Source: a virus. From it: 38,034 nucleotides of DNA. The position numbers and the translations under genes were made by a program. The stretch spans positions 1 to 38,034 of the IMG/VR virus record IMGVR_UViG_3300035670_000620, one strand, 5' to 3'. The notes beneath the pieces are model-generated. The model was given only the letters and a program-made list of their open reading frames with translations. It did not search any database and was not told the origin of the DNA. Positions 22,191-34,445 of this stretch are shown here, piece by piece (position 1 is the first letter of the stretch; each line of letters opens with the position of its first letter).

Positions 22191-22198
22191 TATTTATA
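22191..22198 (-). promoter_or_regulatory. T4-type late promoter for gene 13
   Basis: A perfect minus-strand TATAAATA box 19 bases before the gene 13 ATG, partly overlapping the stop region of the upstream 79-residue gene. It would start the long 13-14-15-16-17 late transcript. Confidence 0.82.
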
Positions 22199-22433
22199 AC
22201 GAACCCATATCGTAGGAAGTTGCACTAGAAGATTCGAGTAGTCCTAAATCAACAGAATTTGAAAAGAAAACTGGTGTTTCCGTTGTTCCAACTTCAATAA
22301 TACTACCATCTGTCTTCTTTGAATATAACAATCCATCTGCTAAATTGATAGCCAGTTCACCGACAGCAATATCACCCGCCGCCGGTATAGAACCAGTTGT
22401 TTCACTTCTTTTTAATTGGACTACAGTTCCCAT
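22194..22433 (-). CDS. Minimal fibre-type protein (N-cap A, C-cap GSL)
   Basis: A 79-residue protein consisting of the N-terminal module VVQLKRSETTGS...GDIAVGELAINLADGLLYSK, common at the start of T4-like marine phage fibre proteins, joined by a short linker to the ending SYDMGSL. It has no shaft repeats. The same N-module and a very similar ending (SVDYGSL) occur in the 116-residue gene at 23776-24126, so the two are paralogues. Its stop overlaps the gene 13 promoter and its start touches the next gene upstream. Probably a small appendage or fibre-attachment subunit; the exact role is unknown. Confidence 0.68.
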   Translation of the reverse strand: MGTVVQLKRSETTGSIPAAGDIAVGELAINLADGLLYSKKTDGSIIEVGTTETPVFFSNSVDLGLLESSSATSYDMGSL

Positions 22434-23548
22434 TAGTTCAACAATGTCCCTGATGCATCATAAATGTTAATACGATAATATGCACTTGAATTTCCATCTA
22501 GAAGATCGGCATCAAGTCCTGAACCAGAACCATCGACCGTCTTAATCGCATCAAGCATATTAGTTGCGGTAAATGCACCACCCAAAGATACAGAAGTACC
22601 CGCTAAGGTGATTGCACTATTTGCCAGTTTGGCGTTAGCAATAGAACCTGCCAACATGGTGTTAGTAACAGTACCAGTATCAGTGGTATATACACCATTT
22701 GAAACCGAGATTGCACCAGTTGCACTATCATAACTAATACCAGTGCCTGCACTTAATGCGGCTCTTGCTCTAGTATTTGTATAGAAAAGATTTGTAGTAC
22801 CTTCAGTTACATTGTCGGTATCTTTTGTTGCTAACCAAGTATCGGCTGTGCTATCAAAATCTGCCGAAGCAAGTTTTGTGGCAATGCTATTAGTGATTGT
22901 TGTGGAGAAGTTTGCATCATCTCCAAGAGCCGCAGCAAGTTCATTCAACGTATCTAGTGCTGCTGGCGCTGCATCGATTACCGCCGCAACCGCTGTCGTG
23001 GCCGCACTATCAGCATAAGATTTTGTGGCGATAGTGGAATCGACTGCAATTGCACCACTTGTAATAGTGATGCCTGTGCCTGCACTGAAATGTGCGCGAA
23101 CATCACTAGCACTTGGACCAGTATATGTAATTGCTCCAGTTGTGCTGTTATACGCGAGTGAACCGTCGCCACCGGAATCTGTTACCGATATTGCACTTCT
23201 GGCTCTGGCGTTTGTGAAATAAAGATTTGTGCTACCTTCTGTGATTTCATCTGTATTATCTTTACCCGCAACCGCGGTATCAACATAAGTTTTTGTTGCG
23301 ACCGTGCTATCAATATCAAATACACCAGTCGAACTGTTATAATCTAGGCCAGTTCCACCTGAAATATCAGAAAGAGTAATGAAACCAGAAATATCAGATT
23401 CTTTTGCTAGAGCAAAACCACCAGCAGTAGATCCATCATGGACTACTATAGTATCTTTAGTTGTATCTACCGTAACTTCGCCCAACGCACCCGTGAAACT
23501 AGAGTGCTGGACTGTAGTGCCTCTTCGAAGTTGTAAAATCGTTGCCAT
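22433..23548 (-). CDS. Fibre-like structural protein with repeats (N-cap B)
   Basis: A 371-residue, Ser/Thr/Ala/Asp-rich protein. The N-module LQLRRGTTVQHSSFTGALGE...VHDGSTAGG is shared with the 67-residue gene at 23573. The shaft has recurring EGSTNLYFTNARARSA and EGTTNLFYTNTRARAA segments with AGTGI...TGAI strands, and a helical AALDTLNELAAALGDDANF segment often seen in phage tail fibres. The C-terminus reads YDASGTLLN, matching the ending YDSSGTRLN of the gene at 33963-34445. Late-region context and composition indicate a trimeric fibre or appendage protein. No receptor-binding or enzymatic domain is recognised. Confidence 0.72.
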   Translation of the reverse strand: MATILQLRRGTTVQHSSFTGALGEVTVDTTKDTIVVHDGSTAGGFALAKESDISGFITLSDISGGTGLDYNSSTGVFDIDSTVATKTYVDTAVAGKDNTDEITEGSTNLYFTNARARSAISVTDSGGDGSLAYNSTTGAITYTGPSASDVRAHFSAGTGITITSGAIAVDSTIATKSYADSAATTAVAAVIDAAPAALDTLNELAAALGDDANFSTTITNSIATKLASADFDSTADTWLATKDTDNVTEGTTNLFYTNTRARAALSAGTGISYDSATGAISVSNGVYTTDTGTVTNTMLAGSIANAKLANSAITLAGTSVSLGGAFTATNMLDAIKTVDGSGSGLDADLLDGNSSAYYRINIYDASGTLLN

Positions 23549-23572
23549 TTGTGTCTCCTAATCCCACTCTAT

Positions 23573-23776
23573 TTAGTTGTATGTTCCACCATCTAGAATG
23601 GCACCGTCTTCTATGTTGTCAAGAGAAGTCTTTAGTAGTTCATGGCCTCCAGCAGTGGATCCATCATGAACTCTAAGCGACCAATTAGTTGTGTCTACAG
23701 TAATTTCAGCCTCTGCACCCGTAAATGATTGGTGTTGAACCGAAGTACCTCGTCTAAGTTTTACTCTAGCAGCCAT
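23573..23776 (-). CDS. Minimal fibre-type protein (N-cap B, C-cap DGGTY)
   Basis: Only 67 residues: the LRRGTSVQHQSFTGAEAE...VHDGSTAGG module, nearly the same as the start of the 371-residue fibre gene downstream, followed at once by a short tail ending ILDGGTYN. The ending matches IDGGTY of the genes at 24424 and 26100. It is a cap-to-cap protein with no shaft. Start and stop sit between tightly packed neighbours (it shares one base with the upstream gene), and the reading frame is the only plausible one, so it is probably expressed. Possibly a small fibre chaperone, cap or adaptor. Confidence 0.62.
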   Translation of the reverse strand: MAARVKLRRGTSVQHQSFTGAEAEITVDTTNWSLRVHDGSTAGGHELLKTSLDNIEDGAILDGGTYN

Positions 23777-24126
23777 TATAAACTCCCGTAATCTACAGAA
23801 TTATACGCCGCTACATCATCTGTAATCAAGCCATAATCTAAATCTGTTAATTGATTTAGACGAACAATAGCTGTTCCAGGAGATGTTGTAGTATCCACAT
23901 GAAAATCGCTAAATGCAGTATCAGCAAAAGAGATTGTGGCGACGGAAGTAGCACCTGAGCCACCATCAACGTCTACGCCACCAATAGACACTACTGTTCC
24001 GCCTGAGTCCTTTGAGAATAATTTTCGATCTACGAGATTGATCGCTAGTTCACCTACTTCCAAATCACCAGAAGTTGGCTCTGAACCTGCGGTCTCGCTT
24101 CTTTTGATTTGAACTACAGTTGACAT
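23776..24126 (-). CDS. Small fibre-type protein (N-cap A, C-cap GSL)
   Basis: A 116-residue protein starting VVQIKRSETAGSEPTSGDLE, then VGELAINLVDRKLFSKDSGG, the same N-module as the 79-residue protein at 22194. A short Gly/Ser/Thr-rich strand region follows (about 55-95) and it ends SVDYGSL. It appears to be an intermediate-length paralogue. Ten bases separate it from the upstream coiled-coil gene. Likely a virion appendage component; I cannot assign a T4 equivalent. Confidence 0.66.
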   Translation of the reverse strand: MSTVVQIKRSETAGSEPTSGDLEVGELAINLVDRKLFSKDSGGTVVSIGGVDVDGGSGATSVATISFADTAFSDFHVDTTTSPGTAIVRLNQLTDLDYGLITDDVAAYNSVDYGSL

Positions 24127-24135
24127 AGTTTAATC

Positions 24136-24375
24136 CTATTCATCTTTCGTAAATTTAGATTCTTCCCAGTCGGCTTTTGCTTTCTTTGCTTGTGCTGGAA
24201 CTTTAGCATTATCTGCGATAACGTTTTCCAATTCAGCAATCTTAGCAGTCAATTCAGCAACAGTTTCATTTGCCATAGTCAACTGGGTTTTCAACATAAT
24301 ATTATCAAGTGTTGATGCCTTAAGTTGTTCGGCCAAATTATTAATATACGAATTGATAAACTTAGTTTGATCCAT
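24136..24375 (-). CDS. Small coiled-coil protein of unknown function
   Basis: A 79-residue protein that is almost entirely one predicted coiled coil (about 8-57, with Leu/Ile/Val heptads in the NNLAEQLKASTLDNIMLK and TVAELTAKIAELENVI stretches), followed by a charged Lys/Glu/Trp tail. It lies among fibre genes, and a strong hairpin (24394-24414) separates it from the large fibre gene upstream. It may be a chaperone or trimerisation factor for the fibres, in the way T4 gp57A assists fibres, but that is inference from position and size only. Confidence 0.6.
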   Translation of the reverse strand: MDQTKFINSYINNLAEQLKASTLDNIMLKTQLTMANETVAELTAKIAELENVIADNAKVPAQAKKAKADWEESKFTKDE

Positions 24376-24393
24376 AATGTATCTCCAAAATGT

Positions 24394-24414
24394 GGGGAGG
24401 GATAATCCCTCCCC
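24394..24414 (-). terminator. GC-rich hairpin between fibre genes (terminator or mRNA-stabilising)
   Basis: A perfect 9-base inverted repeat (GGGGAGGGA / TCCCTCCCC) with a three-base loop lies ten bases after the stop of the 549-residue fibre gene and just before the ribosome-binding site of the coiled-coil gene. On the minus strand it is followed by ACATTTTGG, a short T-run three bases away, so termination would be partial. It may attenuate or protect the mRNA. Confidence 0.55.
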
Positions 24415-24423
24415 TATAATTTA

Positions 24424-26073
24424 TTAGTAAGTTCCGCCGTCGATATTACCGAACGAAGGAGCATTACCTGAACCGTTAGAAAGAAGAACTTGTCCTGCAG
24501 TTCCTACTGCGGTAGCACCAATAGCACTTGTACCACCGCCAAAGAGAACGCCGTTAGCAGTTAGTGTAGTTGCACCCGTACCACCGTCTGCTACACCGAT
24601 AGCAGATGAAAGACCGGAAACTGTACCACCTGAAAGCGAACCTTCGAGGTTAGCAACGAGTGTAGCAACTGTATAGCCAGTGCCAGCAACGTTGACAGTT
24701 GTTGTAGGAGCAGTTTGAAGATCCTTGAAGAGTTTCCACTTACCGTCGGATGCGTCACGGAACAGACCAGCATAGAGGTCTTGTGAACCGCTTGTGTCAT
24801 ACATACCGAACAGACCAAGGTCAACTGCGTCTGTTGAGTTGTTGTCGTTACCAACAAAAACGAGAGGGTCAGTTACCGAGATTGTTGTTGAATTAACAGT
24901 TGTGGTTGTGCCTGTAACTGTTAGGTTACCAGCAACAGTAATGTTTGTTGCGGTAATGTCGTCCGAGTTTAGCGTACCATCAACAGTAACATCATTGAAT
25001 GTAACGTTAGCAGTAGTAGAAACGTCTTGACCAATTTCAATTGTTACTGCACCACCAGCAACAGAAGTTGAAACACCTGTGCCGCCACTGAAAGTTAGAG
25101 TGTCAGTAGCAAGTGAGATTGTATCTGTGCCGCTGTCACCAGCAACATCAAGATCGGTCGAAATGGATTGTTCGCCAGCAGCGGTCAGACGACCCTGAGC
25201 GTCAACTGTGAAAGTTGGAATTGCGGTTGAAGAACCGTAAGAACCAGCAGTGACCGCTGTGTTGTCTAGATCGATTGTACCAGATGTATATGTAATACCT
25301 GTGCCGCCAGAAAGATGACTGTCAACACGACCAGTTGTGAAGTAAAGATTGCTCATTCCTTCAGATAGATCGTCTGTATCATGGTTCGAAAGAGATGATA
25401 CAGTACCAGTTACGTCACCTGTTAGATCAGCAGTTACGGTAGCAAAAGTTACGTTTGCACTAGTGCTTACATCTTGACCAATGCTAATTGTACCTGTGTT
25501 ATAAGTGACGCCAGTACCACCAGATAGATGGTTATCAACACGACCCGTTGTGAAGTAAAGATTACTTACACCTTCTGCTAGATCGTCCGTGTCAAATGTA
25601 GCAAGTGAAACGGCAGAAGCGGTGTATGAGATTACACCAGTTGTATTATCATACGAAAGGTCACCAGAAACACTGACGGCGCCTCTTGCGCGGGCATCGG
25701 TGTAGTAAAGATTTGTAGAGCCTTCACTTAGATCGTCTGTGTCATGGTTCGAAATCGAGGAAACTGTACCAGTTACGTCACCGGTAAGATCGGCTGTGAT
25801 TACGCCAGCAGAGAAGTTACCTGAACCGTCGCGCTTTACGATGGCGGATGCAGTATTTGCATTCGTCGCAGCATCTACGAGAGCGGTATACTTTTTACCA
25901 CCAATGGCGTCAATAACAGCGCCACCAGAAGAGTTTACAGATTCGATATACAGAACACCCGCTGCCCCATTATTGGCTGCGTCTTCTGCATATGCCATTT
26001 CACCTTCTAGAAGATCCGAAGTTGCTGGTGCAGTTGAGCCAGAACTTCTCTTGATTTGAATAATTGTTGACAT
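24424..26073 (-). CDS. Repetitive tail-fibre-like structural protein
   Basis: A 549-residue, Gly/Ser/Thr/Val-rich protein. It starts with a variant N-module IIQIKRSSGSTAPATSDLLEGEMAYA. Two long internal repeats follow: TADLTGDVTGTVSS plus SNHDTDDLSEG (residues 93-125 and 214-246), and the DTDDL...NLYFTTGRVDxHLSGGTG segment (161-196 and 232-267). A FVGNDNNSTDAVDLGLFGMY segment (about 410) leads to a C-terminal domain with GGTGATTLTANGVLFGGGTS, a sequence widespread near the ends of phage fibre and appendage proteins. It ends IDGGTY. Composition and repeats indicate a trimeric beta-rich fibre; the receptor is unknown. A late box lies about 200 bases upstream, inside the small neighbouring gene. 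Confidence 0.75.
   Translation of the reverse strand: MSTIIQIKRSSGSTAPATSDLLEGEMAYAEDAANNGAAGVLYIESVNSSGGAVIDAIGGKKYTALVDAATNANTASAIVKRDGSGNFSAGVITADLTGDVTGTVSSISNHDTDDLSEGSTNLYYTDARARGAVSVSGDLSYDNTTGVISYTASAVSLATFDTDDLAEGVSNLYFTTGRVDNHLSGGTGVTYNTGTISIGQDVSTSANVTFATVTADLTGDVTGTVSSLSNHDTDDLSEGMSNLYFTTGRVDSHLSGGTGITYTSGTIDLDNTAVTAGSYGSSTAIPTFTVDAQGRLTAAGEQSISTDLDVAGDSGTDTISLATDTLTFSGGTGVSTSVAGGAVTIEIGQDVSTTANVTFNDVTVDGTLNSDDITATNITVAGNLTVTGTTTTVNSTTISVTDPLVFVGNDNNSTDAVDLGLFGMYDTSGSQDLYAGLFRDASDGKWKLFKDLQTAPTTTVNVAGTGYTVATLVANLEGSLSGGTVSGLSSAIGVADGGTGATTLTANGVLFGGGTSAIGATAVGTAGQVLLSNGSGNAPSFGNIDGGTY
25273..25797 (-). repeat. Tandem coding repeats in the 549-residue fibre
   Basis: Unit 1 (25699-25797 and 25336-25434) encodes TADLTGDVTGTVSS(I/L)SN then HDTDDLSEG and NLY(Y/F)T. 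Unit 2 (25486-25593 and 25273-25380) encodes DTDDL(A/S)EG then NLYFTTGRVD(N/S)HLSGGTG. The units interleave, showing past internal duplication of a shaft segment. Confidence 0.8.
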
Positions 26074-26099
26074 TTAGCTTTCCTTTTTTGTTATCTAGA

Positions 26100-26315
26100 T
26101 CAATAAGTTCCGCCGTCTATTGCAGTCGGTGTTACTGTAGTAGCAGGATTTACTGCTTCCCATTTCTTTGTTTCCGAATTGTAAATCAAAGTGTAACCAT
26201 CTTGTAATCCGGTAGCATCAACGTCTGCTAAACTTTTAACATCCGCTGCGGCACGCTTGCTTACTATGTTTGTATTTATAGTTTTAGTGTTTGGAACAGT
26301 AACTTTTACAGCCAT
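26100..26315 (-). CDS. Small structural-type protein ending IDGGTY
   Basis: A 71-residue protein with a beta-rich N-terminus (VKVTVPNTKTINTNIVSKRA), then a segment SLADVDATGLQDGYTLIYNSETKKWEAV that resembles the short hairpin repeat found near the ends of many marine-phage fibre proteins, and the ending TAIDGGTY. The same six-residue ending is used by the 549-residue fibre immediately downstream. It shares one base with the upstream 109-residue gene. A TATAAATA box lies inside its coding region. Likely an appendage component. Confidence 0.62.
   Translation of the reverse strand: MAVKVTVPNTKTINTNIVSKRAAADVKSLADVDATGLQDGYTLIYNSETKKWEAVNPATTVTPTAIDGGTY
26273..26280 (-). promoter_or_regulatory. 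Possible intragenic late promoter
   Basis: A perfect minus-strand TATAAATA lies in codons 12-15 of the 71-residue gene, 199 bases before the ATG of the 549-residue fibre gene. It may raise fibre expression, but it could also be chance in AT-rich coding sequence (ThrIleAsnThr codons). Confidence 0.35.
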
Positions 26316-26644
26316 TATTTGGTAACCTCCGGATTGACAACCACAATTCCCTCAAGAACTCTTAGAGTTTCTTCTGGGCTTGTGATTTCGATATCGTAAA
26401 CGTATCTACCAGCCTTTATAGCAGAAGTTTCTTCGGCGGTAAGAGAGATTGTTACTTCGCCATCCAATGGAGAAGACACATCTGCGGTAAAATTTATCGC
26501 AGTGTTAGTATAATAAGATTTACGCATCTGAGACGATGCTTCATAATCAGATAAATCTTTAAGATCACCGAATTGATCAGACACAGCAATAGTGAATGAG
26601 AACGTTGTTCCCTGATCAATATAAATGTTTTGAACTTGTGCCAT
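26315..26644 (-). CDS. Ig-like/BppU-N-like small structural protein
   Basis: A 109-residue single-domain protein with the pattern IYIDQGTTFSFTIAVSDQFG, then DLKDLSDYEASSQMRKSYY, GEVTISLTAEETSAI, and AGRYVYDIEIT...RVLEGIVVVNPEVT. This is the strand order of the small beta-sandwich used at the N-terminus of many phage baseplate upper or fibre-attachment proteins (BppU-N type). It is the first gene of the minus-strand fibre run and has a perfect late promoter 26 bases upstream. It probably attaches to the tail or baseplate, which is inference from fold pattern. Confidence 0.7.
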   Translation of the reverse strand: MAQVQNIYIDQGTTFSFTIAVSDQFGDLKDLSDYEASSQMRKSYYTNTAINFTADVSSPLDGEVTISLTAEETSAIKAGRYVYDIEITSPEETLRVLEGIVVVNPEVTK

Positions 26645-26653
26645 GAGAACCCT

Positions 26654-26661
26654 TATAAATC
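26654..26661 (+). promoter_or_regulatory. Possible plus-strand late promoter of the glycosyltransferase block
   Basis: The plus strand reads TATAAATC, one mismatch (last base) to the late box, 31 bases before the first plus-strand ATG (26693). It lies in the transcribed leader of the divergent minus-strand gene. A sigma70-like TATAAT at 26675-26680 without a good -35 is the alternative. Confidence 0.35.
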
Positions 26662-26670
26662 TTTTCGTTC

Positions 26671-26678
26671 TATTTATA
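26671..26678 (-). promoter_or_regulatory. T4-type late promoter for the 26644 fibre run
   Basis: A perfect minus-strand TATAAATA box 26 bases before the ATG of the Ig-like gene, in the 48-base gap between divergent genes. Confidence 0.8.
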
Positions 26679-26692
26679 ATAATGAGTGAGTA

Positions 26693-27379
26693 ATGAAAAC
26701 TATCTTGATGCTGAAATACGGCACAAAATATAGCAAAGAAGATGTGGATCGTATCATAAATGCGACGAACAGAAAGTATAACTATGTCTGTATTACAGAT
26801 GATGATACACTAGATCCAATAGTAAAGACTATTCCTTTACCAGAAGACGTTGACGGAACATTCATTAAAGTGTGGATGTATGGCCTAGAAGACTTGGGGG
26901 ACGTTCTTTACTTCGACCTTGACATTAGAATACAAAAAGATATAGAACATCTATGGAATTATATTGACGAGCGCCCCACAATATGCTATACATATTGGAA
27001 AGATATTAGTTGGGTAGATCAACCAGCGCAATCTTATAGCACACAATATCTTAGTAACTATAACTCTAGTGCAGTTTTGTGGCGTTCTGGTAGTCCTAAG
27101 GCTAAACAGATTTGGGAACATTTCGAAAAAGACATGGACTACTATATGATCAAATATTGGGGTGACGATAGATTTCTATGGCATGAAAAGTTTGACTTTA
27201 AGTGGTTCCCGAAAGGAGAGTTTTACTCTTTTCTTTATGGAGCAGACTACTATGATCCAGAAAAGAGAGTAGTAGATAGATATCGACCAGAATATACAGT
27301 ATGCCTTTTAAATGGCTTAGATTACTATCCAGGATACGACAAGAAATATGATGATCTTTCTAACAATAAAATGGGGTGA
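26693..27379 (+). CDS. Glycosyltransferase-like protein, paralogue 1 of 4
   Basis: A 228-residue protein beginning ILMLKYGTKYSKEDVDRII. It contains the GT-A-type metal/sugar-nucleotide motif in GDVLYFDLDIRIQKDI (Asp-Leu-Asp at 75-77), a preceding CITDDD strand end, and downstream YNSSAVLWRSG, where the acceptor region is expected. The same signposts (KxGxKYxxxxV, FDLD...Q, NSS...W, YSxxxG, C-terminal (I/V)CLxN) recur in the next three genes, showing common descent. It is the most divergent of the four: the second region between strand 2 and DxD is shorter. It is the first gene of the plus-strand block and overlaps paralogue 2 by 32 bases. Sugar and acceptor are unknown. Confidence 0.68.
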   Translation: MKTILMLKYGTKYSKEDVDRIINATNRKYNYVCITDDDTLDPIVKTIPLPEDVDGTFIKVWMYGLEDLGDVLYFDLDIRIQKDIEHLWNYIDERPTICYTYWKDISWVDQPAQSYSTQYLSNYNSSAVLWRSGSPKAKQIWEHFEKDMDYYMIKYWGDDRFLWHEKFDFKWFPKGEFYSFLYGADYYDPEKRVVDRYRPEYTVCLLNGLDYYPGYDKKYDDLSNNKMG

Positions 27380-28115
27380 CAAATATTCCGAGAAGTATGT
27401 GAATAATCTTTACAAAATGGTAAAGAAGAATTACACAAAAGATTTTAGGTTTATCTGTTACACCGACGATTCAAAAAAGATCAATAAGAACATCGAAGTT
27501 GTTCCTATTCCAGATGATGATCTTTTACATCCAAAATATTATTATGGCAAAGAAGCATTCTGTTTTGACCGAGCAAAGTTTCTAGTATTCAACTCGGAAG
27601 AATGGCTAGATTGTGAGTCAGAAGATCAGTTTTGTTACTTTGATTTGGATCTAGTTATTCAGAACAACATCGATGAAATAGATGAACTGGCCGAGAAACC
27701 CAGAATAGCACATAGTCTGTGGCAACCTGCTGGCCAAATGGATGATAGATTCTTCATTGAGACTAGGGGAACCTACTACAACTCTAGTATGATGCTATGG
27801 TCATATGGTCAATGTCAGCATATATATTACGATGTTTACGAAGAATCTGAAATCATATTTAAGACTTTCTTCAAGGGTAGTGACAACTATCATTTCTGGC
27901 GCCAGAGAGGATTCTGGAAAAACATTCCCGATCATTGGATCTATTCATGGAACAGAGGTCGTTATCATCCAGAAGATGTAGAACGTTTCAAGTTTAGAAG
28001 TGATGCCAAAATATGTCTGTTCAATACAGATAATGTTCCTCATCCTTCAGCAAAAGATCATGTAGAACTTATTGAATGTAATGATAGAAGAATAATTGAT
28101 TTATGGACAAAATAA
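27348..28115 (+). CDS. Glycosyltransferase-like protein, paralogue 2 of 4
   Basis: A 255-residue protein starting MMIFLTIKWGDKYSEKYVNN, with FICYTDDS (strand 2 end), HPKYYYG and the GT-A motif CYFDLDLVIQNNID (Asp-Leu-Asp 99-101). It continues YYNSSMMLWSYGQ, GSDNYHFWRQRGFW, IYSWNRGR and ICLFNTDNVPHP. The DNYHFW aromatic motif near the C-terminus is shared with paralogue 3. Two ATGs (27348, 27351) are possible and differ by one residue. It overlaps paralogue 1 by 32 bases and paralogue 3 by 13. A 120-base sample of this gene (27361-27480) is about 29% G+C by hand count, lower than paralogue 3. Confidence 0.72.
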   Translation: MMIFLTIKWGDKYSEKYVNNLYKMVKKNYTKDFRFICYTDDSKKINKNIEVVPIPDDDLLHPKYYYGKEAFCFDRAKFLVFNSEEWLDCESEDQFCYFDLDLVIQNNIDEIDELAEKPRIAHSLWQPAGQMDDRFFIETRGTYYNSSMMLWSYGQCQHIYYDVYEESEIIFKTFFKGSDNYHFWRQRGFWKNIPDHWIYSWNRGRYHPEDVERFKFRSDAKICLFNTDNVPHPSAKDHVELIECNDRRIIDLWTK

Positions 28116-28939
28116 GAGTCAACTACGTCTGTTGTAAATGGGGTACCAAATACAATCCAGAGTTTGTCAATCGTCTCTATCGAATGGCAAAGAAGCACAC
28201 CCCAAATCGTTTCGAGTTTCATTTCTATTGCTATACAGACAACAGTGAAGGTTTTGAAGATGAAATCAAAGTCATTGACTTCCCAGACATCCCAGATATC
28301 CACCCGAAATACTGGTTCGGTTCAGACGATTTCAAGTATGGTATGGCCCGTTGCTGGGATAGACCCAAGACATTTATCTTCAACACCCACAACTTCGCAG
28401 AAGATAAACCAAATGGCAGATTTGTATTCTTCGATCTGGATGTAATCATTCAAAACGACCTGTCACCGATCATCACTTATGACTTTGATCATCCTACTAA
28501 GTTACGTTCATGGTGGCAGGATCCGCGACCTATGAAGTCTCGTAACTTCAAATTGTCACATGGCGCATACACAAATGGTAGTTGTATGGTGTGGTCGAAT
28601 GATCAAACAGAATGCATCTGGCAGGATGTGTTAGAGAATCAAGAACGTATCTGGTTTACGTTCACGGATGGAACTGACAACTATCATAGCTGGCGATGGG
28701 GTGACTTTAGACGCGATGGTGAACCTCCATTATGGAAACATTTCCCCAGCACTTTTGCATACTCCTACAATAGAGGAAGAGACTGGGATGCAGGTGATTT
28801 AGAAGTATCTAAATATAGAAAGAACTGTATTCTGTGTGTCTTCAACGTTGATTTGCTTCCGTTTCAAGACAATAGCAGAGGCAAGGTGAAGCAGGAATCA
28901 TTAGTTGATCCTGATCTATTAGAGCATTGGAATGTTTGA
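28103..28939 (+). CDS. Glycosyltransferase-like protein, paralogue 3 of 4
   Basis: A 278-residue protein with VNYVCCKWGTKYNPEFVNRL, HFYCYTDNSEG, HPKYWFGSDDF and the GT-A motif RFVFFDLDVIIQNDL (Asp-Leu-Asp 111-113). It continues TNGSCMVWSNDQ, GTDNYHSWRWGDF, FAYSYNRGRDWD and CVFNVDLLPF. It is the longest of the set. The start ATG lies 13 bases inside paralogue 2, and the stop TGA overlaps the ATG of paralogue 4 (TGATG). A 60-base sample near its start (28141-28200) is 43% G+C, unlike the 29% of paralogue 2, so the array may not be one recent duplication. Donor and acceptor are unknown. Confidence 0.74.
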   Translation: MDKIRVNYVCCKWGTKYNPEFVNRLYRMAKKHTPNRFEFHFYCYTDNSEGFEDEIKVIDFPDIPDIHPKYWFGSDDFKYGMARCWDRPKTFIFNTHNFAEDKPNGRFVFFDLDVIIQNDLSPIITYDFDHPTKLRSWWQDPRPMKSRNFKLSHGAYTNGSCMVWSNDQTECIWQDVLENQERIWFTFTDGTDNYHSWRWGDFRRDGEPPLWKHFPSTFAYSYNRGRDWDAGDLEVSKYRKNCILCVFNVDLLPFQDNSRGKVKQESLVDPDLLEHWNV

Positions 28940-29622
28940 TGATTAATATCTACACCGTGAAATGGGGCTTTAAGTATGGACCAGAATATGTCAATCGCAT
29001 ATTCGATGAGTGCAAACAACACATTACTGCCGAGTTTGAGTTTCATTGTATCACAGAACACTCTGTAGGTCTCAATCCAGAAATCACTGTAATTGATTTG
29101 CCCGCAGACAACTACTACGAAAAGTGGTGGAACAAATTATATTTGTTTGATCGTCATCTAATGAGAAAAGATGGAGAAAAGTTATTCTTCGATCTTGACA
29201 TTTCAATTCAGCAAAATATCGACTGTATCGTAGAACATGATCCAGAAGACGGATTGACTTTTGTTCGCACCCACTGGCACAATCTAAACAAGATGAAGAA
29301 AGATTGTAAGGATATACCCCATAAGTATACCGATTTAAACTCAAGTGTTCTTAGATGGAACGATAGGTTAGACATTGACAAAATCACCAAGTTCGTTAGA
29401 GATTATCCTGATCAAATGTTTTTTTATTATCGGGGTCTGGATAATATGTTCGGTCATCAGCGAGAACGTCTTTTAAAGATTAATTATTTTCCTGATGGAT
29501 GGGTATACAGTTACAACTATGGTTACATGTGGCCAACAGATGTGAGAGAACAAGTCATTCGTGAAGAGCCACTAATTTGTCTATATGATTCAATGGAAAG
29601 ACCGCAAGATGCTAAACTATAA
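28939..29622 (+). CDS. Glycosyltransferase-like protein, paralogue 4 of 4
   Basis: A 227-residue protein beginning MINIYTVKWGFKYGPEYVNR, with EFHCITEHSVGLN and the GT-A motif KLFFDLDISIQQNID (Asp-Leu-Asp 85-87). It continues DLNSSVLRWND, YRGLDNMFGHQ, VYSYNYGYMWP and LICLYDSMERP. I start it at the ATG of 28939-28941, which overlaps the stop of paralogue 3 as TGATG, rather than at a TTG four codons upstream. It is shorter than paralogues 2 and 3 in the segment before DxD. It overlaps the methyltransferase-like gene by 14 bases. Confidence 0.72.
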   Translation: MINIYTVKWGFKYGPEYVNRIFDECKQHITAEFEFHCITEHSVGLNPEITVIDLPADNYYEKWWNKLYLFDRHLMRKDGEKLFFDLDISIQQNIDCIVEHDPEDGLTFVRTHWHNLNKMKKDCKDIPHKYTDLNSSVLRWNDRLDIDKITKFVRDYPDQMFFYYRGLDNMFGHQRERLLKINYFPDGWVYSYNYGYMWPTDVREQVIREEPLICLYDSMERPQDAKL

Positions 29623-30265
29623 TTTTTTGAACAACTATCGTAATTGGGGTGAAGGTCTAGATAAGATCAGCCATGAAATGCCATATAAGCATGATGACTT
29701 TCGCAAATCTTTGAATCCAAATACAATGGATGCAGCAATTTGGCTAGTCGAAGAACTGAAAAAGCATGTTGACTTTACGAAGAAACTTGATATCACGATT
29801 CTAAACTCTTGGCTAGGCTTCCCCCTAGTTCCTTTACTATGTGAAAATCTAAGCGTAAAGAAGTTAAATCTAATCGATGTTGATAAAGATGCATTGGAAC
29901 TTTCTAAAGTTTTCAATCGTTATTATTCAGAAAAGGATATCGAACTTAATCACTTGAATTGGGATGTTCCCTTTGCATATCATGATATCAATGCTCTTCG
30001 TACCGATGTTGTTATTTCTCTTTCATGTGAGGCAATGTATCCGCTAAAGAATATGACGACCGCAAACAAGGATTGTATCTTTGCATGCCAATCATCTAAC
30101 GTGTTTAGAGAAATGTATGGCATAAACTGTGTTCCTACAATTCAGGATCATATCGAAAACGTCGGAATAAATAATATTATGTACCAAGGTCAAATCGAAC
30201 AATCATATTGGTCGTGGGACGGCAAGGTAAACTTCGATAGATTTATGGTTGTAGGAAGGAAATAA
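29609..30265 (+). CDS. SAM-dependent methyltransferase-like protein
   Basis: A 218-residue protein with a class-I (Rossmann-like) layout: KKLDITILNSWLGFPLVPLL (59-78) stands where motif I is expected, followed by KKLNLIDVDKDALELSKVF (84-102) with an acidic end of strand 2 (Asp90/Asp92). DVVISLSCEAMYPL further on resembles the motif IV strand and loop. The glycine loop is atypical (NSWLGFP instead of GxGxG), so it could be a divergent or non-methyltransferase member. I choose the ATG at 29609 because GGAAAG lies upstream; an in-frame ATG at 29585 lacks such a site. One base separates its stop from the next gene, so it belongs to the same unit as the four glycosyltransferase-like genes. Confidence 0.55.
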   Translation: MLNYNFLNNYRNWGEGLDKISHEMPYKHDDFRKSLNPNTMDAAIWLVEELKKHVDFTKKLDITILNSWLGFPLVPLLCENLSVKKLNLIDVDKDALELSKVFNRYYSEKDIELNHLNWDVPFAYHDINALRTDVVISLSCEAMYPLKNMTTANKDCIFACQSSNVFREMYGINCVPTIQDHIENVGINNIMYQGQIEQSYWSWDGKVNFDRFMVVGRK

Positions 30266-30266
30266 A

Positions 30267-30941
30267 ATGGGTAAAGCGAAAATCGTTGCACCTCCTCCAA
30301 AAGATTATATTCCAGAACCCCTGATTTCTCCTCCAGTAGAAATAAATTTAGAAGAAACTGTTATTCAAGAATGGTCTGATAGTAATTTAATTGAACAGTT
30401 AGACGAAATAATTGTTCAGGAAGAACCAGTGTCTTCCGAAGAAGAACTCGAAAAAGAGCGTATCGCACAAGAAAAATATGAAGAAATTCAACGGCAAAAG
30501 ATAGAAGCAGAAGAACAGGCTAAGCGAAGAGAAAAGCTGGAAAAGAAAAGTAAGAAAAAAGATACAGAATTATTAGCAGAATTAGAATTATTACGTGCAT
30601 CAAACGAACAACTTGCGCGAGAAAAAGAAGCAGCAGAAAAAGCAAGAGAGGAAACTATTCTTGCTATGCGTAATAAAGCCACTGAACAGCGCGGCAATCA
30701 ATTAAATTTAGTGAAGCAACGCAAGCCTTCTCTTTGGACAAGATTTAAAAATCTACTAAAGAGAAGAAGAATGCAAGTAGCAACGGTAGGAATTAAAAAC
30801 TATGAAACCGCAATTCTACAACGAGCGAGAATTGCGGTCCCAAAGATGTTAGATGATTTAGAAAAGATGCACGAACAGTTGACTATAATGGAAGAACTGT
30901 TAGCAAAATATACCGAGCGTCAAAAAATTAAAGATCAGTAA
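30267..30941 (+). CDS. Coiled-coil protein of unknown function
   Basis: A 224-residue protein in three parts: a Pro/Glu-rich acidic N-terminus (1-55, with APPPKDYIPEP), a long, very charged coiled coil (about 56-145), and a basic segment (QRKPSLWTRFKNLLKRRRMQ, about 151-170) followed by a C-terminal helical hairpin. No membrane segment or catalytic motif is seen. It is the last gene of the plus-strand block and ends tail-to-tail with the oxygenase-like gene, overlapping it by 14 bases. It could scaffold the neighbouring enzymes or be virion-associated; neither is shown. Confidence 0.65.
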   Translation: MGKAKIVAPPPKDYIPEPLISPPVEINLEETVIQEWSDSNLIEQLDEIIVQEEPVSSEEELEKERIAQEKYEEIQRQKIEAEEQAKRREKLEKKSKKKDTELLAELELLRASNEQLAREKEAAEKAREETILAMRNKATEQRGNQLNLVKQRKPSLWTRFKNLLKRRRMQVATVGIKNYETAILQRARIAVPKMLDDLEKMHEQLTIMEELLAKYTERQKIKDQ

Positions 30942-31575
30942 AATCTAATCCAGAAATATCTTCAACCATTGATTTCCAGAGGTCCTCATGGGGAATGACG
31001 TAACCGAGAGTGAGTCGCTTGCTGCGACTCCCAGCACAATGATAGAAGACTTGATCAGTCTCACTCCGCCTACCGAAGTAACCGACCTTGACCGACCAAC
31101 CCTTGGGGTCCCAAAGAGTGACCACTTCTTTTGTTACTGGGTCTAGATATCTAAAGAAGCCAGCATTTTCTTCTGTATTATAGGTTAGAAGAATATTATA
31201 GCCAGCGGCGTTCCAGTTTGTATGCCAGCCCATGAATCCATTTTCTGGATAGTAAACATGAACGGCGTTGTTTCTAGCACCCAGAAAAGAGATAAGTTCT
31301 CTATTTAATTTTTGTTGCTTTTCTCTATGAATGGTTGGAACTGAGTCTACCATACCAATATCACAACAGAATGCTGTTTCTGGATAACCTTCATGATCGC
31401 CGTCTTTATCGACAATTTCGTTCATATACGTTTCGGATGTGCCGCTATCAATATCAAACCCGCGGCGTCTATCTGGTTCACGTAAACTATCATGGTCGGT
31501 TTGAGAGAAGAACCATTCCGTATAGGGAGTGAGTATCTCCAAAAGTTCTGGATTAATCGTATTAGAAAATTTCAT
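30928..31575 (-). CDS. 2OG-Fe(II) oxygenase-like protein with HxN in place of HxD
   Basis: A 215-residue protein with the C-terminal double-stranded beta-helix pattern of 2-oxoglutarate/Fe(II) oxygenases. GFMGWHTNWNAAGYNILL gives His118 and Asn120 where the metal-binding HxD is expected, GFFRYLDPVTKEVVTLWDPK is the middle strand set, and FYHCAGSRSKRLTLGYVI gives the distal His179 and the 2OG-binding Arg187. The Asn replacing Asp would leave only two protein metal ligands, so catalysis may be altered, as in halogenase-type variants, or lost. The ATG (31573-31575) overlaps the stop of the upstream glycosyltransferase as TGATG, so the two are translationally linked. It faces the plus-strand block end to end. 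Confidence 0.62.
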   Translation of the reverse strand: MKFSNTINPELLEILTPYTEWFFSQTDHDSLREPDRRRGFDIDSGTSETYMNEIVDKDGDHEGYPETAFCCDIGMVDSVPTIHREKQQKLNRELISFLGARNNAVHVYYPENGFMGWHTNWNAAGYNILLTYNTEENAGFFRYLDPVTKEVVTLWDPKGWSVKVGYFGRRSETDQVFYHCAGSRSKRLTLGYVIPHEDLWKSMVEDISGLDFTDL

Positions 31576-32273
31576 CACTTGTCCCTGACGGCTGGTGGCA
31601 AGGTATAGTGATAGATGACTATCTCTTGTCCTTGTAATTCTTCTTCTTTATAACCTACAACAAAATTCCAACGGGCATCTGGATCGGGAAATCTTCCAGT
31701 TTTTACACCAGTATTTCCATATGTCAATAGACGCCACATTGTAAATGTATCCCACTGTAATGCGTCTGCTGGATAGTGTTGTCTGTCAAATCCTGGTTCA
31801 TTCTGTCTCTGATATTCTCCCCACCAAGAGGCCATCAACTGCAATGTTTTGGTATTATTGCGATAGATGAATAAGCCACAATGCTCGGTCATTTCTTCTG
31901 TATCAGAAAGTTTAGTCAAAGCAGCATTATACGGACGATTGGCAGTGAATAGAACATCCACATTATCTGGAATCTGATCAAATATTTTTTGAATATCGTC
32001 GTGTTGAACTTCTGTATCACAGTCCATATAAACTGTCAAGTCGTATGGCGTCTTATCTAGCGCCCATAACTTGGCACGCTTATGATATGGCACACCATCG
32101 GTAATAATGTTTTCGAAGATTTCTTCGTCCCCTGGTTCCACCCATTCTGGATGTGTGAACAATGTAATCTTAGCTTCTGGCCAATAGTCTAGTAAAGATA
32201 GAGCAGAGTTTTTAGCAGCGCGGTAGTAGCCTCGGCGAAGAGATGCTACGTAAACAAAACCATTATTCGGCAT
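31575..32273 (-). CDS. Glycosyltransferase, GT-A type
   Basis: A 232-residue protein with the start FVYVASLRRGYYRAAKNSALSL, as in GT-A or GT8-like enzymes, KITLFTHPEW, AKLWALDKTPYDLTVYMDCD (Asp-Cys-Asp at 84-86, candidate DxD), and a C-terminal QWDTFTMWRLL with IYHYTLPPAV (a metal- or phosphate-binding His near the end, typical of such folds). It is only distantly similar to the four plus-strand paralogues. The stop overlaps the start of the oxygenase-like gene, and its start overlaps the end of the upstream 155-residue gene by 11 bases. Sugar and acceptor are unknown. Confidence 0.75.
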   Translation of the reverse strand: MPNNGFVYVASLRRGYYRAAKNSALSLLDYWPEAKITLFTHPEWVEPGDEEIFENIITDGVPYHKRAKLWALDKTPYDLTVYMDCDTEVQHDDIQKIFDQIPDNVDVLFTANRPYNAALTKLSDTEEMTEHCGLFIYRNNTKTLQLMASWWGEYQRQNEPGFDRQHYPADALQWDTFTMWRLLTYGNTGVKTGRFPDPDARWNFVVGYKEEELQGQEIVIYHYTLPPAVRDK

Positions 32274-32730
32274 TCTTTTCTTCTTCCATGATCAGCATGG
32301 TAGCGTATGCCATAACTTCAAGTGCCGATTTCGATCTGCGGATCTTCGTCTTCATCGCCTTGTTGGTAGAGTTTTTGATTACGGGAACTTCGAATGCTTC
32401 TAGCTTGGCTTCGAATAGTGCTTCGTCCTTGCGGCGCTGTTGATCCACCTTTGAACGTTCCATTCTCTGGCGAACTTCTTCTGAACGGCGCTCTTCTCTG
32501 AGGCGAGTATTTTCATCAATCTCGGTCTCAGTAAACTTATTCATAATAGCAATGTAATCTGGATTATTACCTTCACCAGAAACAGAAGCAGGTAGTCGCT
32601 TACCATCTGGATAGATGATAACTACCATTACCTGCTTTTGTTCTTTATTCAGCCAGAAAGGTTCTTCGTAATCTTTTGTTTCGGTAGTAACAACCGAGTC
32701 CAATACCACAGCATCTTCATCCACAATCAT
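32263..32730 (-). CDS. Protein of unknown function, charged helical
   Basis: A 155-residue protein with a beta-type N-terminal half (KDYEEPFWLNKEQKQVMVVI, then YPDGKRLPASVSGEG) and a very charged Arg/Glu-rich helical middle (about 75-115), ending in a short helix ALEVMAYATMLIMEEEK. No enzyme motif is seen. It is the first gene of a small run with the glycosyltransferase and oxygenase-like genes, overlapping the former by 11 bases. A GGAG site precedes the ATG. It may be a chaperone or virion-associated protein, which is a guess from its position after structural genes. Confidence 0.65.
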   Translation of the reverse strand: MIVDEDAVVLDSVVTTETKDYEEPFWLNKEQKQVMVVIIYPDGKRLPASVSGEGNNPDYIAIMNKFTETEIDENTRLREERRSEEVRQRMERSKVDQQRRKDEALFEAKLEAFEVPVIKNSTNKAMKTKIRRSKSALEVMAYATMLIMEEEKNAE

Positions 32731-32765
32731 TCAAATCTCCATAAAATGAAATAATATAAAGTATA

Positions 32766-32773
32766 TAGTTATA
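32766..32773 (-). promoter_or_regulatory. Possible degenerate late promoter upstream of the 32730 gene
   Basis: The minus strand reads TATAACTA (one mismatch to TATAAATA) in the 45-base gap between genes, 35 bases before the ATG at 32730. The gap is AT-rich, so chance occurrence is possible. Confidence 0.35.
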
Positions 32774-32775
32774 GT

Positions 32776-33951
32776 TTATGCGGTGCGAATCCAGAGAGAA
32801 ACCGTGCTTACTGTATCCTTGGTAGAAATAACTGTATCTCCGGCATATGTACCAGAGTATGAGCCAGCATAAGTTCTTGAGCCAGAATAGTTAGCAGAAT
32901 AAGTTCTAGAACCAGCGAACGAGTTACCGTATGATCCAGAATAAGTTCTTGAGCCCGAATAATTAGCCGAATATGTTCGCGAGCCAGCATATGAACCCCC
33001 AACATAACCACCATAATATAAGATATATGTATTAGAATATGTTCTAGCACCACCGTATGTGGTGCTATAAGTTCTATTACCGGCAAAGGTATTAGTGTAG
33101 CTGGTTGAATATGTTCTAGTACCACCATATGTAGTGCTATACGTTCTATCACCACTGTATGAACCAGTGTAGTTCTGAGAAACTACCTGTTCACGGGTGT
33201 CTGAACCCGATCCCATACTAACCCAAGTGCCACCAACAGGAGTTGACGCCTGAAGTTTATATGTACCGACACCAGTATCGATAATACGATTACGGAAGTT
33301 TGGAATCAGTTGTTCAATTTCGGCATCCGACATTTGCTTAATATTGTTGCCGTTATATGTTTTCAACGGACGTAAATCACCGTCGGGTGTCGAAGTTGCT
33401 GCGGTCTTTTGCCAAATATAGTATGTGGTATTACCACCGTTTGCAACGTCGGTAATAGTATATCTTGCTGTCCAAGTACCACCGGCTGGAGCAGAACCTG
33501 CAAGACGATATTGACCAGCGGTATATGAAGATTCTGTTACCATTGCGGTGATAACTTTATCTAGAACATCCGTATCAATTTCACCGTCAGTAAGTTCTTC
33601 GATACCAGAGCCATAGCCAACTGGACGATTGGTAATACTTTCGGACGCGGCCGCAGTTATCTGTTTTGCGTAATAAGTTGTAGTAGTTGATGCACCAGTA
33701 GCAGGGTGAGTGCCAGTCGCTTCTGTTCTATCTGTATCAGCGAATGTACCGATTGCCGTACCAGAAAGTGCATTTGCAGTATCAACGTTGATATCGGCAG
33801 TGTTCGAACCATTACCAGCAGCACCAGCAAATCCTACCGTGATCTTATTAGCAATATAGTTTTTAATTTCTGTGTCCGACATAGCCTGCAAACCCTGAAA
33901 GTTTGAGGACGTAATCGGCGTACCAGATGCTTTGATCTTTAGAGGATTCAT
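32776..33951 (-). CDS. Structural protein with Tyr/Ser/Gly-rich C-terminal repeats
   Basis: A 391-residue protein. The first two thirds contain three related modules introduced by MSDTEIKNYI (24-33), LTDGEIDTDV (120-129) and MSDAEIEQLI (207-216). Two are preceded or followed by Y(R/K)LxxSxPxGGTW (149-160 and 231-243), pointing to internal triplication. Residues 261-371 are a low-complexity repeat built from RTYS and YxGS units, with eight RTY(S/A) copies. A short C-terminal strand segment ends LWIRTA. There are no Cys. Position among fibre genes indicates a virion appendage protein; the Tyr-rich repeat could form stacked beta strands and offers many Ser/Thr/Tyr hydroxyls. I do not recognise a T4 equivalent. 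Confidence 0.7.
   Translation of the reverse strand: MNPLKIKASGTPITSSNFQGLQAMSDTEIKNYIANKITVGFAGAAGNGSNTADINVDTANALSGTAIGTFADTDRTEATGTHPATGASTTTTYYAKQITAAASESITNRPVGYGSGIEELTDGEIDTDVLDKVITAMVTESSYTAGQYRLAGSAPAGGTWTARYTITDVANGGNTTYYIWQKTAATSTPDGDLRPLKTYNGNNIKQMSDAEIEQLIPNFRNRIIDTGVGTYKLQASTPVGGTWVSMGSGSDTREQVVSQNYTGSYSGDRTYSTTYGGTRTYSTSYTNTFAGNRTYSTTYGGARTYSNTYILYYGGYVGGSYAGSRTYSANYSGSRTYSGSYGNSFAGSRTYSANYSGSRTYAGSYSGTYAGDTVISTKDTVSTVSLWIRTA
32839..33171 (-). repeat. RTYS/YxGS coding repeat array
   Basis: About 111 codons encode RTYS or RTYA eight times (starting at residues 269, 279, 293, 303, 325, 335, 349, 359), separated by YSGS, YGG, FAG or YAG blocks. Steps between copies are 10, 14, 10, 22, 10, 14, 10 residues, which is symmetric about the centre. 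DNA repeats are imperfect, so selection on the protein or an old duplication is likely. Confidence 0.85.
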
Positions 33952-33962
33952 TTCTTATAACC

Positions 33963-34445
33963 TTAGTTTAGTCTAGTGCCGCTTGAATCGTATACCAGAA
34001 GTGGTGTCAATGAGAACCAATCGGTGCCGTCTTTTGCTACAAATGTTGCGCTTGAACCTGCAGCAAGTGTTACCGCAGCATCAGCCGTGCCACCATTGAT
34101 TTTATCAGATGTATTAGGATAAATCAATAGATTTGTAGCAGTAGTATTTACTACTGTATAAGTCAAAGATGCAGAAGCCGCAGGTAGTTTAACACCCTGA
34201 CCAGATGATACAGAGGTGACGATGCTGTATACTGTAGCAAGAGTTGTAGCGGTACTTTGATTGGTACCAGCTGCCGAAACTGCCGCGGTAATCGATGGCT
34301 TAAAATCACCGGAAAGAGTAACGTCTGTGAATTCTGGACTATCACCAGATTCATACTTATCGGTGTTTAGATTGTTGAAGTTATTATCAACTTCTGTGTT
34401 CGTAAGAGGTGAGCCTTTTACGGATCTTAGAGTGATTGTTGACAT
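33963..34445 (-). CDS. Short fibre-type structural protein
   Basis: A 160-residue protein starting ITLRSVKGSPLTNTEVDNNFNNLN, the widespread start of marine T4-like phage fibre or appendage proteins (SPLTxxEVDxNFxNL). It continues with a beta-rich Ser/Thr/Val section and a GSSATFVAKDGTDWFSL segment, and ends YDSSGTRLN, the ending shared with the 371-residue fibre at 22433. A perfect late box lies 72 bases upstream inside the neighbouring small gene. Likely a trimeric short fibre or collar appendage; no receptor information. Confidence 0.7.
   Translation of the reverse strand: MSTITLRSVKGSPLTNTEVDNNFNNLNTDKYESGDSPEFTDVTLSGDFKPSITAAVSAAGTNQSTATTLATVYSIVTSVSSGQGVKLPAASASLTYTVVNTTATNLLIYPNTSDKINGGTADAAVTLAAGSSATFVAKDGTDWFSLTPLLVYDSSGTRLN

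Follow-up and report, generated by a model that had tools for sequence, protein, structure and literature searches.

Why should seven fibre genes in a single viral DNA fragment carry recurring short C-terminal endings? The fragment that hosts this cassette, analysed over its whole length of 38,034 nucleotides (hereafter the window), is Kyanoviridae-like (T4-like), and the original prediction took the endings to be docking or trimerisation tags on fibres that evolve by the shuffling of caps and shafts. The docking idea is supported here in a more specific form, namely that from the class of the tag one can predict which N-terminal domain the next gene carries, and we consider that the endings are probably C-terminal docking tags that join consecutive fibre segments as a plug and a socket. 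Under this model each segment would end in a plug, either D-x-G-[S/T/G/A]-[hydrophobic] (the DYGSL or DGGTY class) or of the GTLLN class, and a trimer of one segment would insert its tail into the socket, an N-terminal beta domain (Mtd_N or its probable relative QxKRS) of the next segment, which is usually encoded immediately downstream of the plug segment. Separately made trimers could then join end to end, with small proteins such as a 67-aa protein composed of a socket and a tag serving as putative connectors, and with the shafts between both caps being exchangeable. Physical binding of the tag in the N-domain, the trimer stoichiometry, and the order of the segments in the virion are what we infer from the genomic data presented below.

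The fibre cassette and its endings

The cassette lies entirely on the minus strand and begins with an untagged gene (26315..26644) for a 109-aa LtfC/BppU-like beta-sandwich protein (phrog_3304/1084). The first tagged protein, of 71 aa and at the T4-like GC 508 position (26100..26315), has an N-terminal type of its own and ends in DGGTY (tag codons 26103-26117), and it is followed by a 549-aa fibre (24424..26073) with a QxKRS-type N-domain (~25924-26073) and the C-terminal DGGTY (24427-24441). A conserved 79-aa coiled-coil-like protein that carries no tag (24136..24375) sits between this gene and the next tagged one, which encodes a 116-aa segment (23776..24126; QxKRS N-domain ~23977-24126, C-terminal DYGSL 23779-23793) and whose stop overlaps the start of the gene for the 67-aa putative connector (23573..23776; Mtd_N domain ~23627-23776, DGGTY(N) tag 23579-23593). 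Next come a 371-aa fibre (22433..23548) with an Mtd_N domain (~23399-23548) and the ending YDASGTLLN (22436-22462), and, as the QxKRS gene following it, a 79-aa segment (22194..22433) with a QLKRS N-domain and a DMGSL tag (22197-22211), which is the last gene before the gp13-like neck or head-tail adaptor gene (21203..22171) used as the synteny anchor. A 160-aa protein encoded apart from these, also on the minus strand (33963..34445), ends in YDSSGTRLN and has few remote relatives; it shares only the likeness of its ending to that of the 371-aa fibre, with no socket gene downstream and no supporting pairing. A Megablast comparison of the cassette with phages returned zero matches.

In translation the endings read SYDMGSL (22194), SVDYGSL (23776), DGGTY (24424 and 26100), YDASGTLLN (22433), and YDSSGTRLN (33963). 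The claim that seven genes share such endings holds, with the correction that the 67-aa protein ends in DGGTYN, one residue longer than DGGTY, whereas the division into three unrelated types does not: both DGGTY and DYGSL/DMGSL fit a single motif, D-x-G-[ST]-hydrophobic-COOH, which leaves two or three classes of tag. The chance of an exact C-terminal pentamer match is ~8e-7 per pair, with 0.001 expected among 50 genes, and coincidence is a negligible source of the common endings. Across 309 sequences (308 related loci and the window; 630,000 residues), [DN]GG[TSV][YF] was C-terminal 209 times, lay 1-5 residues from the end 33 times and was internal 13 times, while Y[DN]xxG..LN was terminal 61 times and internal once. 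Homologues hold the endings at the extreme C-terminus, as proposed for C-terminal anchors, and the sequence preceding them is unconserved. Among 32 non-redundant tagged versions of the gene that follows the 109-aa LtfC-like gene, pairwise identity is 68% over the tag and falls to 13% and 10% over the 10 and 30 residues preceding it, respectively; among 35 non-redundant proteins encoded upstream of Mtd_N genes, conservation is confined to the last five of 28 aligned residues.

The N-terminal domain of the following gene

Two N-terminal modules recur in the cassette, as had been recognised at the outset, with the 549-aa fibre also carrying the QxKRS type. The N-terminal domains of the 22433 and 23573 proteins are Mtd_N (PF18454), a 37-residue Pfam domain, with scores of 53.3 and 55.5 bits, respectively, against a curated cut-off of 26.3, and phmmer with the 67-aa protein finds Mtd chains (E 1.2e-9). 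In the predicted structures, which are of monomers only and in both of which the tag region is the low-confidence end, the 67-aa protein adopts the Mtd_N fold in its AlphaFold model (the top Foldseek matches are Mtd entries, prob 0.99-1.00, best E 4e-3, with only a low Z of 2.7-3.3 in a VIA fold check), and the model of the 116-aa QxKRS protein gave no significant match in a fold search. The QxKRS domain alone had no match in Pfam; a relationship to Mtd_N is suggested by hhalign, in which 41 of 55 columns are colinear (E 4e-5, at a probability of only 70%), and by an overlap of 189 proteins in iterative HMM searches.

The tag stands directly upstream of 60 of 122 non-redundant Mtd_N genes (55 of 85 when viral ones are counted) and is found among other genes in 63 of 1528 cases (4%), many of these being tagged fibre genes themselves; the enrichment is strong (Fisher p = 5e-41), with 1.1 occurrences expected from the internal rate against the 60 observed. 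When 2.9 million viral contigs were scanned blind at the DNA level, 37 genes were retrieved in which DYG[ST][LIV]-stop overlaps an ATGGC start, and all 37, from approximately six lineages, are directly followed by an Mtd_N gene, in contrast to none of the eight matches with open reading frames for the control DYGR[LIV]. Sorted by class, DYGSL-type tags precede an Mtd_N gene in 35 of 40 cases (38 of 40 when counted by eye), GTLLN precedes a QxKRS gene in six of seven, and DGGTY (n=55) precedes QxKRS in 23 and Mtd_N in five, the counts for the last two classes coming mostly from one phage family, in which conserved gene order could contribute. DGG[TS][YF] tags also track the QxKRS N-domain in cis or in trans, in eight of eight tagged phages against neither of two untagged Kyanoviridae-type ones: where the QxKRS gene is not adjacent in DGG-tagged phages it is located elsewhere, and no QxKRS gene is present in HTVC008M or S-SSM7, in which the matching gene lacks a DGG tag.

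The proteins that carry the tag upstream of Mtd_N are mutually unrelated, including a T7-like fibre, a protein resembling the P22 spike head, and proteins from 69 aa to 1200 aa. The fibre Bbp9 of phage BPP-1 ends in ADLGGIA and is followed by mtd, and comparable upstream endings occur in AH02 (NLGGLA), a Syntrophomonadaceae phage (DWGSLT), S-TIP37 (DFGTL), CRP-3 (DFGSI), HTVC008M (DLGSVA), GP100 (DMGVLP), and Vibrio phage 1.021.A (DYGSVA). In four Vibrio phages the tag and Mtd_N are fused with 3-5 residues between them, as in 1.007.O (DLGSV-DNGT-KLQHRRGT) and 1.060.A (DFGLV-TSGT-EVKHRRGT), with similar fusions in qdvp001 and 10AMN; searches of viral contigs for relatives of these fusions found none or were uninformative, and fusion candidates in the fetched loci were artefacts of upstream start codons. 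Counter-cases exist: for approximately one third of the viral Mtd_N genes the gene upstream lacks the tag (the S-CAM1/S-SSM7 lineage, counted as one, Phosso, K437b, L409, and L437), and no socket gene follows the tagged gene that adjoins gp13.

The interchangeability of caps originally proposed stands as far as the exchange of shafts between caps is concerned. At slot E, proteins of 69 to 892 aa follow the same Mtd_N cap and mostly keep the same ending, and at slot C a common QxKRS N-domain and a common D-x-G tag flank two unrelated middles. The endings themselves are not freely interchangeable, as each tends to go with one socket type. We tentatively favour the view that a D-x-G-[ST]-hydrophobic tag and class-matched sockets (Mtd_N, QxKRS) form a general code across tailed phages, one that would include Mtd held on Bbp9 of BPP-1 and further classes such as DGGTY, GTLLN, and perhaps AIALG or MMMGA.

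Alternative readings of the endings

The most serious competitor, which we regard as unlikely, is that the tag caps its own fibre for trimerisation or registration and that the tagged fibre and the Mtd_N gene are merely a co-transferred cassette. Every carrier does resemble a trimeric fibre or spike protein, adjacent fibre genes are often swapped jointly, and gene order in Kyanoviridae is conserved, but we disfavour this reading because the upstream carriers are unrelated to one another, because the fusions retain the tag as an internal sequence immediately preceding Mtd_N, and because the DGG tag and QxKRS co-occur in trans. It is less probable still, and in our estimation quite improbable, that an assembly chaperone recognises the tag, for example the 109-aa LtfC-like protein, which is annotated as an L-shaped tail fibre assembly protein and whose gene immediately precedes the first tagged one in the majority of related phages; the tagged Mtd_N systems of BPP-1, S-TIP37, CRP-3, and AH02 have no LtfC-like neighbour by annotation, and the tag class goes with the N-domain of the next gene. 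Least credible is a Shine-Dalgarno artefact of the overlapping next gene (GGAGGT codes for DGG-, GGAAGT for -GS-), to which the tag codons containing GGAG or GAGG in 30/44 (DYGSL) and 14/20 (DGGTY) genes with the next start within 5 nt lend some appeal, but which is largely rejected as contradicted by the codon data, given that these strings occur in only 3/18 and 4/44, respectively, where the next start lies over 20 nt downstream and the residues are unchanged, that Gly is encoded by all four of its codons and Ser/Thr by several, and that the fusions retain the tag.

Relation to known attachment systems

Mtd is the classic DGR-diversified receptor binder of Bordetella phage BPP-1. It sits at the fibre ends (PMC3567102), and its N-terminal beta-prism (PF18454; PDB 1YU0-1YU4), a member of the same N-domain family as in the 67-aa and 371-aa proteins of the window and in the downstream partners, has only been presumed to attach it to the tail fibre (PMC10743442). 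Neither source (PMC3567102, PMC10743442) describes which part of the fibre holds Mtd, and for this other half of the joint we propose the five-residue D-x-G-[ST]-hydrophobic tag, which is present on Bbp9. The PDB chains with Mtd_N are of Mtd alone, with no partner structure, and a comparison of Bbp9 with solved structures matched no more than portions of a tailspike and a 60 kDa protein. Unlike Mtd, the window proteins show no evidence of a C-type-lectin tip or a DGR. The genome comparisons suggest that the tail of one fibre protein inserts into the N-terminal end of the next, which, if true, would explain how many phages, including the carrier of Mtd, join interchangeable fibre pieces. The tag would then provide a one-line sequence test predicting which phage proteins are joined, could account for the very small proteins (67-80 aa) of fibre operons as connectors, and may aid the annotation of fibres in marine phages, many of which appear in records only as hypothetical proteins.

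We found no description of a C-terminal docking motif in the literature. In the anchor-branched receptor-binding protein (RBP) systems of phages G7C, K1-5, and Klebsiella KP32, one fibre protein is proposed to attach to a dedicated domain of a second through a short conserved peptide, which is N-terminal on the distal RBP and docks on a T4gp10-like domain (PMC6872550), whereas in the window the conserved peptide is the extreme C-terminus of the proximal, upstream protein and its putative partner is the N-terminal domain of the distal one; the profiles matched by the partner domains are those of Mtd_N or of phage fibre N-termini. The T4 long tail fibre and collar fibritin likewise involve segmented or gp13-adjacent fibre genes. 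A Pfam scan of ten proteins at E 0.1 detected no fibritin or T4 fibre-joint family, and the proposed joint differs from the T4 fibre joints in consisting of a 5-residue tag and a small N-domain. In position the cassette does correspond to T4 fibritin (Wac), with its 22194 gene adjoining the gp13-like gene.

The fibre cassette and its endings

The window, a 38-kb virus record in its own right, has T4-type structural matches among its genes (major head protein, portal, sheath, large terminase, and gp13/gp14-like neck proteins), and the nearest named relatives of its fibre cassette are Kyanoviridae, namely Synechococcus, Pelagibacter, and Methylophilales phages. Seven minus-strand genes lie between a 109-aa LtfC-like gene (26315–26644) and gp13, six of them bearing a conserved C-terminal ending, or tag: a 71-aa protein (26100–26315) ending DGGTY; a 549-aa protein (24424) with a QIKRS N-domain, ending DGGTY; an untagged, coiled-coil-like 79-aa protein (24136–24375); a 116-aa protein (23776–24126) with a QIKRS N-domain, ending DYGSL; a 67-aa protein (23573) with Mtd_N, the presumed attachment domain of phage BPP-1 Mtd, ending DGGTYN; a 371-aa Mtd_N protein (22433) ending SGTLLN; and a 79-aa protein (22194) with a QLKRS N-domain, ending DMGSL. 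The protein at 33963 falls outside this cassette, and its YDSSGTRLN ending, which lacks pairing support, may be a coincidence. Many Kyanoviridae conserve the coiled-coil-like protein (MDQTKFINSYINNLAEQL...) with a tagged fibre gene on each side of it.

The original prediction that the shared endings are real and C-terminal is borne out by a census of 2604 distinct proteins (309 sequences), in which [DN]GG[TSV][YF] stood at the terminus 209 times, near it 33 times, and inside the protein just 13 times, and Y[DN]xxG..LN at the terminus 61 times and inside once. The tag is retained in 32 of 47 non-redundant versions of the gene after the LtfC-like gene, with 68% pairwise identity over the tag against 13% and 10% over the preceding 10 and 30 residues. 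Across 90 loci, endings are largely constant at each gene position while lengths vary widely, and at one position (slot C) two unrelated middle sections are flanked by the same N-domain and tag, providing direct evidence of the proposed cap-and-shaft exchange.

Endings common to proteins of very different length also include AIALG/AIAVALG, FMMMGA, and EIYGFV (related loci L083, L176, L178, L200, L323, L409, and L444), possibly additional tag classes.

Pairing of the DYGSL-type tag with Mtd_N

DGGTY, DYGSL, DMGSL, and DLGSV align as one motif, D-x-G-[STGA]-hydrophobic, which ends the gene directly upstream of Mtd_N in unrelated named phages: S-TIP37, which is T7-like (DFGTL), Roseobacter CRP-3 (DFGSI), Pelagibacter HTVC008M (DLGSVA), BPP-1 Bbp9 (DLGGIA), a Syntrophomonadaceae phage (DWGSLT), Pseudomonas AH02 (NLGGLA) and GP100 (DMGVLP), and Vibrio 1.021.A (DYGSVA). 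In non-redundant sets, 60 of 122 genes upstream of Mtd_N are tagged (55 of 85 in viral loci) versus 63 of 1528 other genes, many of these 63 being tagged fibre genes themselves; the internal motif rate predicts 1.1 tagged upstream genes. Conservation among 35 aligned non-redundant upstream proteins is confined to the last 5 of 28 columns, and a tagged neighbour is missing for roughly a third of the viral Mtd_N genes, one cyanophage lineage accounting for several of these.

The blind reverse scan, which avoids sampling around Mtd_N, covered the DNA of 2.9 million viral contigs for DYG[STRCW]-[LIV]-stop overlapping ATGGC and returned 53 matches. Mtd_N came next in 37/37 matches with S or T at position 4 ending an ORF and in 0/8 with R there, a result of qualitative strength because the 37 represent about six lineages; the other 8 had no sizeable upstream ORF. 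In four Vibrio phages Mtd_N lies inside a longer protein, with the tag 3–5 residues ahead in all four (SDLGSV-DNGT-KLQHRRGT, SDFGLV-TSGT-EVKHRRGT, NDYGAV-VGDGL-VVKHRRGT, and NNYGPL-SEDGL-TVSHRSGN); since split phages place stop and start within this linker, tag and Mtd_N are suggested to form a single joint module, usually divided over two genes.

A reading of the tag as a ribosome-binding site was largely rejected, as synonymous codons keep its residues constant where the next start is far. GGAG or GAGG occurs in the tag codons of DYGSL and DGGTY in 30/44 and 14/20 cases with the next start within 5 nt, versus 3/18 and 4/44, with residues unchanged, at distances above 20 nt; the Shine-Dalgarno role is a secondary use. 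Overlapping gene pairs often show such dual-use stretches, e.g., 23776–23793.

A second D-Y-G-L-I-T copy often stands about 13 residues ahead of terminal DYGSL (DYGLITDxxxxxxxDYGSL; 23776–24126 and many upstream proteins), as if the motif had been doubled. In Parasutterella/Mesosutterella loci (L332, L348), DLGGLS or DLGELS tags precede tandem Mtd_N proteins whose repetitive C-termini are rich in Cys (TYCAYCTHCS...). Gut Alphaproteobacteria (L337, L349, L360, L372, and similar) encode in their genomes Mtd_N proteins of about 190 aa, perhaps domesticated, which come after an untagged gene some 800 aa long and directly before an acetate-kinase-like gene starting MYILALNCGSSS.

The DGG and GTLLN classes

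DGG[TS][YF] is followed by a QxKRS gene in 23 of 55 non-redundant pairs and by Mtd_N in 5, most of the remainder having a small coiled-coil gene or gp13 next; GTLLN precedes QxKRS in 6/7. Because a single phage family supplies most examples of these classes, the claim is weaker than that for DYGSL and Mtd_N. A DGG-tagged gene directly precedes gp13 in S-T4, Sf-CH5, S-SRM01, and ACG-2014f, and precedes a coil gene and then gp13 in DSL-LC03, with a QxKRS fibre elsewhere in each genome; no QxKRS fibre occurs in HTVC008M or S-SSM7, where the corresponding gene is without the DGG tag, or in the non-Kyanoviridae Mtd_N phages, save one weak match to the very gene that encodes Mtd_N. Judged by sequence, the QxKRS domain is probably related, at a distance, to Mtd_N.

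A proposed tag joint between fibre segments

Mtd is located at the end of tail fibres (PMC3567102), its N-terminal beta-prism presumably contacting the fibre (PMC10743442), and Mtd alone represents Mtd_N among solved structures. The model of the 67-aa protein matches the Mtd N-terminal fold best, a second comparison agreeing with low Z; the tag is its least confident part, as expected of an element acting in trans, which is not evidence of binding. The data show the pairing, position, and conservation of the tag, and we infer that it binds the N-domain: three C-terminal tags per trimeric segment would most likely dock into the trimeric N-domain of the segment that follows, and independently folding pieces would assemble into chains, e.g., in the order 116 aa, 67 aa, 371 aa, 79 aa. 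Conserved-peptide docking has likewise been proposed for Klebsiella phage receptor-binding proteins, but it uses the opposite terminus and a different partner domain (PMC6872550), and the proposed tag joint is therefore not a member of that type.

Elsewhere in the window, four similar genes in a row (26693–29622, plus strand), possibly glycosyltransferase-like, share the N-terminal pattern xxKWGxKYxxxxVNxxY and form an opposite-strand insertion in the tail module that is retained in relatives. A 391-aa protein (32776–33951, minus strand) without a PHROGs family match contains many SYSGSRTYS/YTNTFAGNRTYS repeats.
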